Assembly (NCBI GenBank): GCA_026389335.1
Contig: JAPLIB010000019.1
Span: 1-54,290 of the forward strand
Reading direction: 5' to 3'
From: Cyanobacteriota bacterium
GTDB taxonomy: Bacteria > Cyanobacteriota > Cyanobacteriia > PCC-6307 > Cyanobiaceae
DNA: 54,290 nt
In this document: positions 6,982-50,001 of the stretch, piece after piece
How positions within the stretch are numbered: position 1 is the stretch's first letter
Layout of the letters: the number at the start of each line of letters is the position of its first letter
Notes under the pieces: generated by a model
The model's database searches: none
The model's input: the letters and a program-made list of their open reading frames with translations, nothing else
What the model was told of the DNA's origin: nothing
Made by a program: the position numbers and the translations under genes

Positions 6982-7178
6982 TCGGCCTCCCAATCTGCGT
7001 GCACCAAGGGGCTGATACAGAGATCCGGTTCGCCTCCTGGACGGCAGAAAAAAAGGGGGGGTCCAAGACTGAGCCGTGATCAACAAAAGACGGTATGCCG
7101 AGCGGAAAAGCGGTGCTAGGCTTGATGGGTTCAGGTCGCGTCGATCGCTTGCGTTCGGGGCGGCATGGCGGATGCTCC

Positions 7179-7577
7179 GTGTTTTCGACCACATTTCGCT
7201 ACGCCTTGATCAGCTTGATGGAGCTGTCGCGCAGTCAGGGGCTGAGGCAGGCCAGCACGATTGCCAGCCAGTTCAACCTCTCTCCGCACTACCTCTGTGT
7301 TGTGCTCAGAGAATTGCGTAGGCTCGGACTGGTTGATAGCCAGAAGGGCAAGCATGGCGGCTATCGGCTCACCTGCGAGCTCGAGCAGGTGAATCTGCTG
7401 ACCCTCTATCGGTCGCTGCCGGGTTCCAGTGATGCAGACGACATTGAGTCGGAACGCCGTCTAGGCGCAGGTGTCGCTGAAATTTGGTTGCAGCAGGTGG
7501 CAGAACGCTGGTGCAAGGAGCTGGCTTCCACCTCCCTGGCCGATCTTCAGGGCCAGGAATTCAGCGGCGATTCCTGA
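7179..7577 (+). CDS. Rrf2-family transcription regulator
   Basis: A 132-residue Rrf2-type DNA-binding protein. The winged helix spans about residues 1-65: FSTTFRYALISLMEL, then the recognition region TIASQFNLSPHYLCVVLREL, then the wing GKHGGYRLT. The GTG at 7179 places the protein start at the usual Rrf2 position (VFSTTFRYA), and GGCGGA just upstream may serve as ribosome binding site. Three cysteines are present (YLC, LTC, RWC), but not in the IscR-type iron-sulfur spacing. Rrf2 members such as CymR control sulfur and cysteine metabolism, so the position beside cysA suggests a sulfur-responsive role; that is inference. The reading frame after residue 120 is close to a one-base shift from an open frame that continues to 7740, so the original protein may have been longer. 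Confidence 0.82.
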   Translation: MFSTTFRYALISLMELSRSQGLRQASTIASQFNLSPHYLCVVLRELRRLGLVDSQKGKHGGYRLTCELEQVNLLTLYRSLPGSSDADDIESERRLGAGVAEIWLQQVAERWCKELASTSLADLQGQEFSGDS

Positions 7578-7740
7578 GTTCATCGGGCTTGCTCTCCTTG
7601 ATGATCCAGCCATCGCTGCCCTTCGTCAACGCTCCGACGCGTCAGCAGCGCCAGGTCAGCCGCTGGATTGGCTGAACAAGGGAGAGCAGGCCCCACCCGC
7701 ACCTTCCTCGGCTGTGCCGATGCCGCCGCCCCCTAAGGCG
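7570..7740 (+). pseudogene. 5' part of ORF interrupted by IS66 island
   Basis: An open frame with protein-like composition (for example LDWLNKGEQAPPAP and MPPPPKA) lies just after, and one frame off from, the Rrf2 gene. It runs straight into the left end of the IS66 composite at 7741. Joining base 7740 to base 10704 continues the same frame as LWDRIISGGIRL and a stop at 10740-10742. No good start codon for this frame was found downstream of the Rrf2 stop, so it may be the C-terminal tail of the Rrf2 gene separated by a one-base frameshift, or a separate overlapping gene. The segment's start is therefore arbitrary. Confidence 0.4.
7730..7740. repeat. left direct repeat of IS66 composite
   Basis: The 11-mer CCCCTAAGGCG ends exactly where the left terminal inverted repeat of the composite begins. 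The identical 11-mer occurs at 10693-10703, immediately outside the right terminal repeat. The two most likely represent a target-site duplication made when the whole 7741-10692 unit inserted. IS66 elements usually duplicate 8 bp, so the 11-bp length is unusual and might include a few chance matches. Confidence 0.65.
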
Positions 7741-7837
7741 TACCCGTTCAGGGGCAGGTACAGCACGCGGCAAACTTCGTCTCTACTGAACGCTTGACGG
7801 CGTCCTGATTTCCGCTTACATCTCTAGCAGAGACTGC

Positions 7838-8596
7838 TTGCGCTGGGCGCCCCTGCTGCTGGCATTGCCAACGCACTCTGGTTGTCGTGGTCAGCCGATG
7901 CCAGAGAGTTCATCCTGGCTCAGCAGGAACAGATCGAGCAGTTCGCTGTTGGGCTCGTCCTATGCCGGCACTGTGGTGAGCGATCGCTTTTCTGTCTACA
8001 ATCATCTGCCGGTGATGCAAAGGCAGCTGTACAGGGCACACTTGATCCGTGATCTCAACGCCATTACAGGCCGCCAAGGGGCCAGCGGTGAAATCGGAGC
8101 AGAGTTTCTGGTGCTGTAGCAGCAGATGTTTGTGCAGTGGCACCAGTGGAAGGACGACGCGATCGACTGGGATCAGTGCCAGCAAAGCTGCCGGCCGCTC
8201 TGTCAGCAGTTCGAGGGCATACTGCAACAGGTGGTGGATCTTGGCTATGCGCGAAAGGAGCGAACACCATGGGACCAGACCGTGCGCACCAGCCAGCAAC
8301 TCTTACATTGCCAAGAAGCCCTCCAGATCTTCCTGGCGATTCACCAGGGCATCGAATCCACTAACAATGCCGCCGAGAGAGCACTGCGCCAAGCGGTGAT
8401 TCAGTGCAAAATCAGCCTTGGTGTCCAGTCCGCCAGCGCTGCCATCTGCCGCAGCCAACTGTTCACGCTCATCCCCAACTTGTAGCAATAGAGCAGGGAT
8501 ATCTGGCGGTTTCTCGAGCAGGCCTGGATTGTCCATCACCGCACTGGCGTGATGCTCTCATGCCGGATCCTTGAGTTCATGAGCATAAACTACTGA
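7838..8596 (+). pseudogene. IS66 transposase remnant, copy A
   Basis: The C-terminal half of an IS66-family transposase. Recognisable pieces are GTVVSDRFSVYNHLPVMQRQ, with a DDE-type Asp; the central WHQWKDDAIDW region; NNAAERALRQAV, with the catalytic Glu; and the ending DIWRFLEQAWIVHHRTGV. All lie in a single frame broken by three stop codons: TAG at 8117-8119, TAG at 8483-8485 and TAG at 8489-8491. The N-terminal half is missing; the sequence between the left terminal repeat and about 7950 does not resemble the transposase start. The gene is dead. It gives the same tail as copy B at 10516-10596. Confidence 0.8.
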
Positions 8597-8717
8597 TCAG
8601 ATCTCCCTCGTGACGAGGCGTGATCCGGGGAGAAATGGCGCTTTTCATCGTCCCACACTCTGAACGCGTACCTCACCCAAGGCGGCGCCGAGCAGCCGGC
8701 ATGGCCGTGGTCCATTG

Positions 8718-9737
8718 TCATCGCGACTTCCAGTTGCTGGGCTCTGAAAGAGTCAGCGGCCTGAGCAGAAGGGAAGCACTATGAATCGGATGGCGGGTGA
8801 TTGCCCAGCTGGCCCTGCGCAGATTGCGGATCCGCAGACCGTGGAAGAAACGTCGCATGTTCGCCCCACTATCCACGGGCTTCCAGGGTTGCTCTGGCGG
8901 CAGCCGTCCGCCTTCGACCCTGCGGCACCAGTCGATCAAGGCCAGGCTCTCAAGGGCCGGTGTATCAAGCCGGAGAGCCCACTCCAGCCGTGCCGGGTCA
9001 GGAACTACCGGTCCGCGAAGCAGCTGTAGCAGATCTACCAGGTAGCGGAAGGAATCACCACTGACCCGATTCGGATAGAACAAGGCGTGGGCACAGGCGA
9101 TGGCGATCCGATCCTCCAAACAGGGGAGCAGCACGGAGCTCCGACCACAGGCGATCGGCTTGGCATCCGACCAAAGGGTGTTGAGACGTTCAAAGCTCAG
9201 TGGAACGAGGTGGTTGGGGCGCCGATGCAAGTCCACATTCAGGCGGCCGTCGGCCGCACGGAATTCCACGGCGTGGCGGACTGGATCGTAGGGATACAGG
9301 GAAACAGCTCGAAGCCGATGGATGCCGCTGGCCTCCAGTACCGCTGCCGCAGCCGCCATCTGCTCCGGGGGCACCAGCAAATCGAGATCACCGAAGGCGC
9401 GGCTGGGTTGATCGGGATGGGCCAAGGCCTCCCCGAGACCTTTCAGCACGATGACGTCGATACCTCCTGCCTTCAGGCCCCCCGAAAGACGGTGGAACTG
9501 CCCCACCAACCAGAGGCATATCAACCGTTGTTGACGAACCACGGTGCGGAACTGGTGCCCAACAGGCCCGGCTGGGGCGCCATAGCGCTGCAACAACAGA
9601 GGCAACAGGGAATGGGATCCAGGGGGCAGGTCAACGGCTGCCGCGCCACCACCTAGGAGTTGCCCCCAGAAGTAATGGGGCTCCTGCGGGGGGCCGAACA
9701 ATGACTGGAGGATTTGTCTCTGGCCGTCATTCAACAC
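8718..9737 (-). CDS. nucleotidyltransferase-family protein (cargo)
   Basis: A predicted protein of 339 residues with a GTG start. It resembles the uncharacterised nucleotidyltransferase family (NTP_transf_5 type). The core IDVIVLKGLGEALAHPD, then RAFGDLDLLVPPEQM with the paired Asp residues of a nucleotidyltransferase fold, lie at about residues 93-126; a further DLHRRPNHLVP segment follows near 170. The C-terminal half is helical, with DRIAIACAHALFY. Relatives occur in polysaccharide or peptide-modification loci, but the substrate is not known. It is transcribed against the flanking IS66 remnants and is the only intact gene inside the composite element, so it looks like cargo. There is no signal peptide or membrane segment. 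Confidence 0.7.
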   Translation of the reverse strand: MLNDGQRQILQSLFGPPQEPHYFWGQLLGGGAAAVDLPPGSHSLLPLLLQRYGAPAGPVGHQFRTVVRQQRLICLWLVGQFHRLSGGLKAGGIDVIVLKGLGEALAHPDQPSRAFGDLDLLVPPEQMAAAAAVLEASGIHRLRAVSLYPYDPVRHAVEFRAADGRLNVDLHRRPNHLVPLSFERLNTLWSDAKPIACGRSSVLLPCLEDRIAIACAHALFYPNRVSGDSFRYLVDLLQLLRGPVVPDPARLEWALRLDTPALESLALIDWCRRVEGGRLPPEQPWKPVDSGANMRRFFHGLRIRNLRRASWAITRHPIHSASLLLRPLTLSEPSNWKSR

Positions 9738-9830
9738 GAATCTGGCACAACCAACTTCTCAATGCACCCTATCCTCCTCGCTAACAATCAACTAGACACG
9801 CCATCTTCATGCATCCTGGCCGGTGGCGCC

Positions 9831-9879
9831 AGGTAGGGAGCTTGAGCTGTTCTGATTTTTCAGCTCAAGCTCCCTACCT
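9831..9879. repeat. perfect 18-bp inverted repeat
   Basis: AGGTAGGGAGCTTGAGCT at 9831-9848 is matched exactly by its reverse complement at 9862-9879, with a 13-base spacer containing TTTTT. It lies about 95 bases before the start of the nucleotidyltransferase gene (which points away) and about 150 bases before IS66 copy B. It could be a strong hairpin acting in RNA, the collapsed ends of a further small element, or a protein-binding site. No T-tract follows on either strand, so a simple terminator is less likely. Confidence 0.75.
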
Positions 9880-10032
9880 CGCGTGCCCTCAGAGGGCCAA
9901 TATCCTGTGCGTTGATTGCCCATAAGCCTGCGCAACCCTGAGTTCCCGTTCTGTGAGCCGGATGCAGCGGCTGACCGCATTGGCGATTCGCTCGGTCATC
10001 CCAGCCATCGAGAAGCGACGGTTGAATCGGAG

Positions 10033-10692
10033 TACCCGTTCAGGGGGCGGGATTCTCGCTGCGAACATTGGCCCTGCAGAACCGTTGACCGCGGCTTGGA
10101 TCCCGTTTGCATCTCAGGGAGAGATCGGTTGCGATGACCACGCCACCGGTCGGGATATCAGAAGCAGATTGGCAGGCGACAGCAGCGGGCATCAGGGCGC
10201 TGAACTGGTCCCAGCAGCAGGAGATCCAGGTTCTCAGGCAGGAGAACGAGCAGCTCCGGACCCAGCTCACCGCCTTGGCCACCGAGCTGGCCAACCTGCG
10301 TGAGCGAATCGGCCGCCGCCCGCGCCACTCTTCCAAACCGCCCTCCAGTGACGGGCCTGGCCATCGCTGCGCGGAAAACCCTTCGGGTTGCAAGCCTCCC
10401 GAGCGGCGCAAGCGCATTGGCCGCAAGCGAGGCGGCCAGCTCGGCGATCCCGGATCCGGGCCGGAGCTGCTGCCGATTGAGCGGGTGGATGAGGTGGTGG
10501 AGGCAACTGGGCCGGGATACCTGGCAGTACCTCGAGCAGGCCTGGATTGCCCATCACCGCGCTGGCGTGATGCCCTCATTGCTGCCGGATCGCTGAGCTC
10601 GTCAGCACAAACCACGGATCAGATCTTCCTCGCGACGAGCAGTGATCCAGGAAGCAATGGCGCGGGTGATCGTCCTGATCTCTGAACGGATA
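10033..10692 (+). mobile_element. internally deleted IS66 copy B
   Basis: A 660-base derivative of an IS66-type element with both ends intact: TACCCGTTCAG at 10033-10043 and its inverted partner at 10682-10692. Inside, the transposase start is joined to the transposase tail after loss of the centre. Its right end closely matches the right end of copy A over at least 150 bases before the terminal repeat, so the two are relatives. It resembles a short non-autonomous (MITE-like) derivative. Confidence 0.75.
10134..10596 (+). pseudogene. IS66 transposase, deleted and frameshifted
   Basis: The start is a good IS66 N-terminal region from the ATG at 10134 (MTTPPVGISEADW). A leucine-rich coiled coil (QQEIQVLRQENEQLRTQL) follows, then the linker SSKPPSSDGPG and the Gly/Arg-rich hinge, up to about 10505. 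There the frame loses homology. In the next frame (+1) the family's last residues appear (DTWQYLEQAWIAHHRAGVMP), ending at 10596. The catalytic DDE core is absent, removed by a deletion of several hundred bases that also shifted the frame. A frame continuing to 10685 exists but is meaningless after the junction. Confidence 0.8.
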
Positions 10693-10703
10693 CCCCTAAG
10701 GCG
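10693..10703. repeat. right direct repeat of IS66 composite
   Basis: CCCCTAAGGCG, identical to 7730-7740 and directly abutting the right terminal inverted repeat. Together the pair brackets the composite element as expected for a target duplication. Confidence 0.65.
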
Positions 10704-10742
10704 TTGTGGGACAGAATCATTTCTGGTGGGATTCGCCTATAA
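10704..10742 (+). pseudogene. 3' end of ORF interrupted by IS66 island
   Basis: Read in frame with the segment ending at 7740, this stretch encodes LWDRIISGGIRL followed by TAA at 10740-10742. The stop overlaps the start of the A-tract of a convergent terminator, a natural place for a gene end. See the 5' part at 7570-7740. What protein this was is not recognised. Confidence 0.4.
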
Positions 10743-10767
10743 AAAAAAGCCTCCGAGTAGCGGAGGC
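10738..10767 (-). terminator. rho-independent terminator (minus strand)
   Basis: GCCTCCG (10749-10755), a 5-base loop and CGGAGGC (10761-10767) form a perfect GC-rich stem. Read on the minus strand, it is followed by a run of eight T residues (10748 down to 10741). It ends the 55-residue gene transcribed from 10959. This is the clearest terminator in the window. Confidence 0.88.
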
Positions 10768-10791
10768 CGAACAGGGTTCTGAAGTGCAGAT

Positions 10792-10959
10792 TCAGCGGCG
10801 TTCCGCTTCGGCCTGGATCTGGACCAGGCGAGCATCCTGTTGGTATTGGGCAACGCTGAGGCTGTCCTGATGGCGTAGAAGTTCGCCGTTCTTGAACACG
10901 AGTGTGTAACGTTGTTGATGGGGTTGCGAAAGCTGGGAGCGAACGTATTGGGCGGCCAT
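10792..10959 (-). CDS. small 55-residue protein, unknown
   Basis: A short gene encoding MAAQYVRSQLSQPHQQRYTL, then a middle VFKNGELLRHQDSLS and an ending AEAERR. It has an ATG start, a TGA stop and a strong terminator 25 bases downstream. Gln and Arg are abundant, and the segment RYTLVFKNGELLRHQDS looks like two beta strands with a turn. There is no signal peptide, membrane helix or recognisable domain. It lies 84 bases downstream of the Crp-family gene on the same strand, so both may share a transcript that ends at this terminator. The quality of the terminator and the codon pattern argue for a real gene, perhaps a small accessory protein of the sulfur island; that link is only positional. 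Confidence 0.6.
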   Translation of the reverse strand: MAAQYVRSQLSQPHQQRYTLVFKNGELLRHQDSLSVAQYQQDARLVQIQAEAERR

Positions 10960-11043
10960 GGCAGCAGAAAACGGTAGACGACAGAAGAGAATGTTTTGGG
11001 GCCAGGAATTCCTGGCCTCAATGAGGCATCGGGCTGAGGGAAC

Positions 11044-11613
11044 TCAGACGCCAGCAACCAGGGGCTCGATTGGAATCAGCAGATCGGCTTCACTGACCCT
11101 GCGCAGCAGCCCCAGGGCTTTATAGCGATTGAGGTTTTTGGTCACCGTCACCCGGGTCAGGCCGCAGATATCGGCCAGGGATTTATGGGTGAGGTTCATG
11201 TCTTTGAGCGAAAGGCGATACCCCTTGCTGCTCACCTGGCCGAAGCGGGTGCCAATCCAGCGCAGCAGCATCAGCAGACGATGCTCGGCGCTGCGAATGC
11301 GGTTGATCTGGAAAATCTCTTCGGTGTTGCGGATCTGATGGCGCAGAAAGGCGACAATCTCCGCCTCACTGGGATGGTATTGCTCCACCACCACGGTGGA
11401 GAGGCACTGGATTTCGACAGGCTGCAGGGAGGAATAGACGTTGGTGACCCAGTCGCCGGGGCCCCAGAGACCGAGGGTGATCGATTCGCCCTCTTCATCC
11501 CAGGCGGCGGACCGGATGTAGCCGTCCTGGATCTTCCAGTTCAGGCCTTCGGGCAGTACGTCATTGGGCAGCAGGGTGAGACGGAGTGCCTGGGGGTGGC
11601 GCGAGATGGTCAT
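11044..11613 (-). CDS. Crp/Fnr-family regulator, CysR/NtcA-like
   Basis: A 189-residue transcription factor of the Crp/Fnr superfamily. The N-terminal part (about 1-100) is a shortened cyclic-nucleotide-like beta barrel with WDEEGESITLGLWGPGDWV; a helix follows. The C-terminal winged helix holds the recognition region LTHKSLADICGLTRVTVTKNLNRYKALGLL (about 138-168). The cyclic-nucleotide-binding RxE/S signature was not seen, so the ligand may differ, as in NtcA and CysR. In Synechococcus elongatus, CysR is the Crp relative needed for the sulfur-starvation response, and this gene lies within the sulfate transport island; that makes a CysR-like role plausible but not proven. The ATG at 11613 is the only good start. 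Confidence 0.8.
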   Translation of the reverse strand: MTISRHPQALRLTLLPNDVLPEGLNWKIQDGYIRSAAWDEEGESITLGLWGPGDWVTNVYSSLQPVEIQCLSTVVVEQYHPSEAEIVAFLRHQIRNTEEIFQINRIRSAEHRLLMLLRWIGTRFGQVSSKGYRLSLKDMNLTHKSLADICGLTRVTVTKNLNRYKALGLLRRVSEADLLIPIEPLVAGV

Positions 11614-49086: not shown

Positions 49087-50001
49087 GTGAGCGTCGAAAC
49101 TCTGGCCAGCAGCGAGCGCAGGGGCATCATCCTGGCAGGTGGTAATGGCACCCGCCTGGCACCACTCACCGGCGCCATCAGCAAGCAGCTGATGCCGGTG
49201 TATGACAAGCCGATGATCTACTACCCGCTCAGCACCCTGATGTTGGCTGGGATCCGCGATATCCTGATCATCACCACACCCGCTGACCAGGGCGCCTTCC
49301 AGCGCCTGCTGGGCGATGGTTCCGCCTGGGGGATGGCGATCGAGTACGCCATCCAGCCGCGCCCCGAGGGCCTGGCCCAGGCCTTTCTGATCGGTGCCGA
49401 TTTCCTGGGTGGCCGCTCGGCGGCCCTGGTGCTGGGCGACAACCTCTTCCATGGCCATGACTTGGTGCCCCAGCTGCAGGCCAGCAATGGCCCCGCCATC
49501 GGTGCCACGGTGTTCGCCTACCCGGTGCGTGATCCGGAGCGCTACGGCGTTGTGCAGTTCGACGAGGAGGGACGGGTGATCAGCCTGGAGGAGAAACCGG
49601 TCCGGCCGAAGTCTCGCTATGCCGTCACCGGCCTTTATTTCTATGACGCCAGCGTTGTCGAGCGGGCCCGCCAGGTGCGTCCCTCCCCGCGCGGTGAGCT
49701 GGAGATCACCGACCTCAACCAGCTCTATCTCGACGAGGGCCTGTTGCGGGTGCAATTGATGGGCCGGGGCATGGCCTGGCTCGATACCGGCACGCCTGAT
49801 TCGTTGCATGAGGCGGCGAGCTACATCCGCACCCTGGAGCATCGCCAGGGGTTGAAGGTGGGCTGCCCGGAGGAGGTGGCCTGGCGCCTCGGCTGGATCG
49901 ATGACAGCCAGCTGGAGCGACTGGCCCAGCCCCTGCGCAAGAGTGGCTATGGCACCTATCTGTTGCAGCTGCTCAGCGAGAGCGGCGAGGAGGCGAGCTG
50001 A
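49087..50001 (+). CDS. rfbA: glucose-1-phosphate thymidylyltransferase
   Basis: A 304-residue nucleotidyltransferase, first step of dTDP-L-rhamnose synthesis (glucose-1-phosphate + dTTP). [18 protein letters not shown] (about 11-28) is the nucleotide-binding loop, [20 protein letters not shown] the sugar-nucleotide core, LGDNLFHG the metal Asp region, and [20 protein letters not shown] the family signature. The GTG at 49087 was chosen so that about ten residues precede the loop; a start at 49015 would add 24 unlike residues. rfbC starts 2 bases after the stop. rfbB (4,6-dehydratase) is not in the window. Confidence 0.93.

Follow-up and report, generated by a model that had tools for sequence, protein, structure and literature searches.

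Two defective insertion sequences (ISs) of the IS66 type, designated A and B, and the cargo between them form a 2.95-kb block that is most probably a decayed non-autonomous composite transposon, inserted once as a block and moved in trans. The block lies in the window, i.e. the whole analysed stretch of 54,290 nucleotides, which belongs to contig C37 of an assembly of 4.05 Mb in 171 contigs (hereafter, the own genome). Two features of the block are those of a composite transposon: (i) two ISs of one family flank unrelated DNA, and (ii) the outermost ends have a duplication that the inner ends lack, a point qualified by the near match at 8676-8684. The components of the block and its flanks are listed in Table 1.

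Table 1. Components of the IS66-type block and its flanks, in window positions
Feature	Positions	Strand	Description
Left putative target duplication	7731..7739	+	CCCTAAGGC; 8-bp core CCTAAGGC at 7732-7739
Copy A	7740..8671	+	IS66-type, internally deleted, 932 bp; DDE transposase remnant with internal TAG
Outer left end of the putative composite (left end of A)	7740..7751	+	GTACCCGTTCAG
Inner right end of A	8660..8671	-	GTACGCGTTCAG, read on the - strand
Cargo segment	8672..10031	.	1360 bp; 61.5% GC (window 65.3%)
Nucleotidyltransferase gene, intact	8718..9737	-	339 codons; PF14907 NTP_transf_5, E 3.9e-25
Perfect inverted repeat upstream of the cargo gene	9831..9879	.	19-bp arms, 11-base loop
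Copy B	10032..10693	+	IS66-type, internally deleted, 662 bp; ~470 bp from the left part fused to approximately the last 190 bp
Inner left end of B	10032..10043	+	GTACCCGTTCAG
Outer right end of the putative composite (right end of B)	10682..10693	-	GTATCCGTTCAG, read on the - strand
Right putative target duplication	10694..10702	+	CCCTAAGGC; core CCTAAGGC at 10695-10702; extra C at 10694

An earlier, sequence-only reading of this DNA had described four 11-base ends of alternating orientation, and all four sites are real: TACCCGTTCAG occurs at 7741 (+, exact), 8660 (-, one mismatch), 10033 (+, exact), and 10682 (-, one mismatch), and a pattern scan of the window revealed one further place with one mismatch, at 49222, away from the block. 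The boundary had been drawn one base short, however. Related elements start with a G before TACCC, and the true ends include G7740 and C10693, one base further out. The pattern TAYCCGTTCAG occurs at 14 places in the own genome, 12 of which were recovered with the preceding G; the remaining two are the right end of B, where the G is present and GGGG is absent, and C125:32469, which is outside the comparison. The corrected ends give copies A and B the extents listed in Table 1. The order of the ends along the block (+ - + -) rules out a simple nesting of one IS inside the other. Ends of the form GTAYCCRTTCAGGGG were found in 10 of the 42 genomes of the genus, the own genome included, and the backward control pattern had no matches in these 42 genomes.

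The description of A and B as defective copies of the IS66 type that share one orientation is supported; neither copy retains a complete transposase frame. The open frame of A matches a part of the IS66 DDE domain PF03050 (E 1.5e-5, above its cut-off), and reading through one TAG gives E 6.9e-12. The DDE remnant corresponds to positions 122-282 of the 284 positions of the profile, with the TAG within. By alignment, some 200 bp remain of the left part of A (the first ~110 are backed by blastn), followed by the last part of the DDE domain. Copy B aligns at both ends with full-length relatives and contains a DUF6444 domain (E 3.8e-10); a Pfam profile search found no DDE domain match of its own, and its frame has two NCBIfam matches, both far below the cut-offs. 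The complete genome G020, from the same genus, contains relatives that are 1713 bp long with a single 518-aa frame, a length that leaves no room for tnpA and tnpB.

A and B are not copies of one and the same IS. Over the terminal 110 bp, the left ends of A and B are 69% identical and the right ends 77%, and by these identities A and B are assigned to different lineages within IS66. The element on contig C134 has the left end closest to that of A (81%, GTAGGC type), and the element on C3 the one closest to that of B (82%, GTATCC type). For both copies, the right end is similar to those on C54 and C36 and on C44 of the genome G028 (76-81%).

The exact repeat reported outside both outer ends, CCCCTAAGGCG, was confirmed. 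It occurs exactly twice in the window, at 7730-7740 and 10693-10703, abutting the outer ends as first drawn, and the identity extends one base more, to a full repeat of 12 bp, CCCCTAAGGCGT, at 7730-7741 and 10693-10704. At the corrected ends, the 8 bases adjoining the left end are CCTAAGGC and those adjoining the right end CCCTAAGG. The outer flanks are identical over 9 bp with the ends held fixed, or over 8 bases if the right junction gained one of its four Cs later. Our preferred interpretation of the 9-bp match is 8 bp (CCTAAGGC) and an additional C within the C run. Four components account for the 12-bp identity: the 8-bp target, the additional C, the C that terminates the right end, and a GT that starts the left end and, in the host, also comes after the target. 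Among 2,000,000 random flank pairs drawn from the window, the frequency of 8-bp matches was 1.6e-4 when shifts of 0 or 1 base were allowed, and that of 9-bp matches at fixed places was 1.7e-5. A duplication of 11 bp, the length of the repeat in the sequence-only reading, is rejected as a property of the element by the corrected ends together with the 8-bp duplications measured in relatives, and the excess length of the repeat is largely explained without a new mechanism.

The 8-bp duplication habit of IS66 elements, given as usual in that reading, was observed both in G020 and among the relatives in the own genome. All 16 places with a left end in G020 were retrieved; the right end was identified for 14 of them and was not found for two. 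Eleven of the 14 two-ended copies have an exact 8-bp duplication, one has a duplication with 7 of 8 bases, and two have none. One of the eleven exact copies (L097, C1:990105-993590) is interrupted by ~1.77 kb of DNA containing a 519-codon frame, which is probably a second transposase. A further copy, on C34 of G002, is without duplication.

For the own genome, 27 ends were compared, namely 26 of 33 places and a lookalike end on C86 that starts with ATACC; left out were the two places in the window, the mismatched lookalikes on C15 and C98, and, for lack of a locus, C161 and the second place on each of C146 and C150. An exact common 8-mer in the right orientation is found in seven pairs of these ends, against about 0.005 pairs expected by chance (351 pairs, 1 in 65,536), and no 9-bp pair was found among the 27 ends. 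The left ends of the seven pairs are of the GTATCC type in six cases and of the GTAGGC type in one, and the right ends are GTACCCA in all. For 24 of the 27 ends, the contig terminates 136-188 bases inside the end, indicating that IS66 copies break the assembly. The proposed search of the own genome for an intact relative provided the duplication length, 8 bp, but not a complete transposase: the assembly contains three partial PF03050 matches, one of them being copy A. All 18 exact duplications that were measured (11 in G020 and 7 in the own genome) are 8 bp long, and this is the measured duplication length for the group in two genomes. Three 201-bp mini-elements with ends GTATCCGTTCAGGGG were found in G002 (L110, C52:27746-27946), G030 (L111, C68:10114-10314), and G063 (L112, C59:3711-3911); their flanking bases differ, an exact 8-bp duplication accompanies two of them, and they look like MITEs of the same IS66 group.

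These measurements bear on a variant, compatible with the composite transposon, in which the lineages of A and B make a 9-bp duplication rather than an 8-bp duplication followed by the gain of a C. Exactly 9 bp match with the ends placed at G7740 and C10693, whereas the 18 exact duplications and the two exact ones among the three mini-elements are all of 8 bp, and the difference amounts to one C in a run of four; we regard this variant as unlikely. The contrast between a 9-bp match at the fixed ends and none of 18 exact duplications of 9 bp also counts against the insertion as one block.

Two separate insertions, each with its own duplication, had been named as the outcome contrary to a compound transposon, and no such duplications were seen at the window flanks of A or B. 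The flanks of A alone (CCTAAGGC and CTCACCCA) do not match, nor do those of B alone (GAATCGGA and CCCTAAGG) or the inner pair (CTCACCCA and GAATCGGA). Given the matching outer flanks, this indicates that A and B did not arrive as a pair of ordinary, independent insertions, and it is the pattern expected of a block inserted once. Their independent arrival, with an outer match due to chance or target preference, would be favored by the frequency of IS66 ends in the own genome, where they occupy 24 places, two of them inside the window. It is nevertheless highly improbable, with neither copy having a duplication of its own, the outer match having the chance of about 1.6e-4 given above, and the flanks of the other copies in the own genome showing no common sequence, as judged by eye.

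The right flank of A holds CCCAAGGCG (8676-8684), four bases in, which is one edit from the target CCCTAAGGCG, and this near copy keeps alive a scenario in which A stood here first. A single IS would have inserted with an 8-bp duplication, the cargo and the second IS would have come later, either through the recombination of a circle bearing an IS or with a transposable module that contained one IS and landed next to A, and the outer repeat would be due to the first IS alone. Such a course yields the identical outer repeat, and CCCAAGGCG could be the decayed right-hand duplication of A. On the other hand, ends of A and B that are 69-77% identical make a poor substrate for recombination, and the flank of A would need the loss of a C and the gain of five bases (by inspection). 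Moreover, B alone resembles one element, its ends being akin to both ends of the C44 element of G028 (76% and 81%; the left boundary of this element was set one base too far out, with hardly any effect on these values). We find the stepwise origin quite improbable and treat the near copy, of a kind seen in 0.09% of 20-bp stretches taken at random from the window, as a coincidence. No second copy of the block was seen in the own assembly, and a search of the own genome with the cargo protein found none.

Comparison with the related genomes revealed the same locus free of the block. The rrf2-type gene (7095-7577) and the Crp-family gene (11044-11613) of the window are 3.47 kb apart. The rrf2 and Crp protein matches in seven relatives (G015, G011, G017, G029, G034, G010, and G005) are 112-443 bases apart, which leaves no room for the block; in G014, according to the match lists, the order is the same and a 69% Crp match is 348 bases away. 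Nine loci were retrieved for comparison of the insertion site. The DNA matches to the left and right of the block are 147-220 bases apart in G015, G011, and G017, as compared with ~270 bases in the window minus the block, and the window spacer (7579-7740 and 10704-10740) is longer than in these three genomes. The nearest Crp proteins (97%) are encoded in G032 (L138, C48) and G021 (L139, C137), where rrf2 is not present at the site, ~100 bases lie between the match to the ABC gene and the match to the small gene, and the block is absent. Thus, rrf2 itself comes and goes at this locus.

The spacer bases around the insertion are not confidently alignable with those of the relatives, and the junction is not conserved. 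The empty-site comparison proposed earlier therefore gave a block-free locus in relatives, but not a single copy of the 11-mer at the junction; no single-copy, base-exact empty site was found in the relatives' loci, the 59 other genomes, or genome_contigs. The compound transposon of the sequence-only reading is supported, by the presence of an outer repeat and the lack of an inner one, rather than proven. When the flanks are joined, one frame stays open into LWDRIISGGIRL and a stop, reading ...PPPPKALWDRIISGGIRL and a stop. We gave this restored frame no weight as proof of an empty site, since Pfam gave no match to its left part at E 1 and its tail has no relative in the 59 other genomes or genome_contigs.

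None of 59 other genomes, 36 from the genus and 23 from the class, encodes a close relative of the cargo nucleotidyltransferase. Weak matches were found in 10 of these genomes, the longest with 34% identity over 256 residues and a short one with 43% identity over 69 residues. The cargo has no match in the plasmid collection, none was confirmed in genome_contigs or viral contigs by searches sensitive to close relatives only, and NCBIfam gave no match to the protein at E 0.1. The neighborhoods of the homologs were inspected at 5 of the 12 matched places, the own gene excluded, and six neighbors were scanned. Transglut_core3 genes were found in G029 and G004 and ABC transporter genes in G029 and G052; in G020, the neighbor is without a domain match. 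In the own genome, a NTP_transf_5-like frame (31% identity over 81 residues) at a contig end (L035, C142:1-1856) adjoins a HPr-kinase-like gene, with a match just below the cut-off, and is perhaps part of a lasso-peptide-type cluster. In the block, no partner gene of the lasso-peptide type is found beside the cargo gene.

The nucleotidyltransferase of the pseudomycoidin pathway attaches hexoses to a phosphorylated lasso peptide, according to a passage of PMC8498205. As in the lasso clusters of this type described there, some distant homologs of the cargo adjoin Transglut_core3, HPr-kinase-like, or ABC genes (PMC8498205), whereas the block is without a partner gene and the distant homologs reach at best 34% identity over 256 residues. 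That the cargo enzyme acts similarly to that of pseudomycoidin is a guess. A broader scenario, in which two dead IS66 elements of different lineages, moved only in trans via mixed ends, ferry a single orphan tailoring gene of the lasso-peptide type between genomes, appears doubtful. Third-position GC is 69% in the cargo gene, 70% in rrf2, and 76-84% in four other neighbors, and hints at most weakly at a foreign origin of the cargo.

Two further sequences within the cargo segment were considered as possible IS remains and rejected. The 19-bp inverted repeat (z-score -7.8 when folded as RNA) is not a repeated IS end, since a genome search allowing up to 2 mismatches recovered its own two arms and nothing else; in the region 7000-11500, no Rfam family attains its gathering score. 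The frame at 9889-10020 is not supported as a transposase remnant, having no Pfam match at E 1; its one NCBIfam match is far under the cut-off (flavodoxin, E 0.0046).

The proposed course of events would start from two internally deleted single-ORF (ISBst12-like) IS66 elements of different lineages, lying in the same orientation on both sides of the 1.36-kb cargo. Most likely, a transposase from a relative elsewhere in the cell would recognize the outermost ends, namely the left one of A and the right one of B. The 2.95-kb block would then enter the spacer between the rrf2-type regulator gene and the small gene beside the Crp-family gene, and the insertion would duplicate the 8-bp target CCTAAGGC; the C at the right junction would be either a later gain or a sign of a duplication one base longer. 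We infer movement as one block with help in trans, and the helper transposase would have been encoded in the own genome; the copies may have decayed either before or after the move. If this is true, a single-ORF IS66 element can mobilize a neighboring gene even though both flanking copies are dead and unlike each other, given the transposase of a relative.

Inverted ends beginning with GTA are typical of IS66 elements. The DDE domain of A and the ends beginning with GTA liken the block to the ISBst12 group of this family, and the 1713-bp relatives in G020 share with the group their one long frame. Unlike intact elements of the group, A and B are both internally deleted and have no complete transposase frame. 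ISDge4 of Deinococcus geothermalis, a single-ORF IS66 element of the ISBst12 group, is described in a passage of PMC12898284 as making an 8-bp duplication and as having one end that begins with GTA and one with GTG; the 8-bp duplications of the relatives studied here are like those of ISDge4 (PMC12898284). In a part of PMC3281130, two IS66 elements are tabulated with 8-bp duplications, mobile insertion cassettes of Bacillus cereus are mentioned, and Tn6097 is given as a composite transposon with ends of the IS1634 family. As in composite transposons such as Tn6097, two ISs of the same family surround unrelated DNA and the repeat is outermost, but in contrast to composites of the Tn6097 type described there, both ISs of the block are defective and of different lineages (PMC3281130). 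With both ISs defective, movement would need a transposase from elsewhere. The B. cereus cassettes consist of DNA between IS ends and have no transposase of their own. The block shares with them this DNA between IS ends without a transposase and differs in having two IS remnants with four ends, whereas the cassettes have two ends only. A composite transposon is a known kind of element that involves no new mechanism, and the mixed dead ends of the block are a mild curiosity among such elements.
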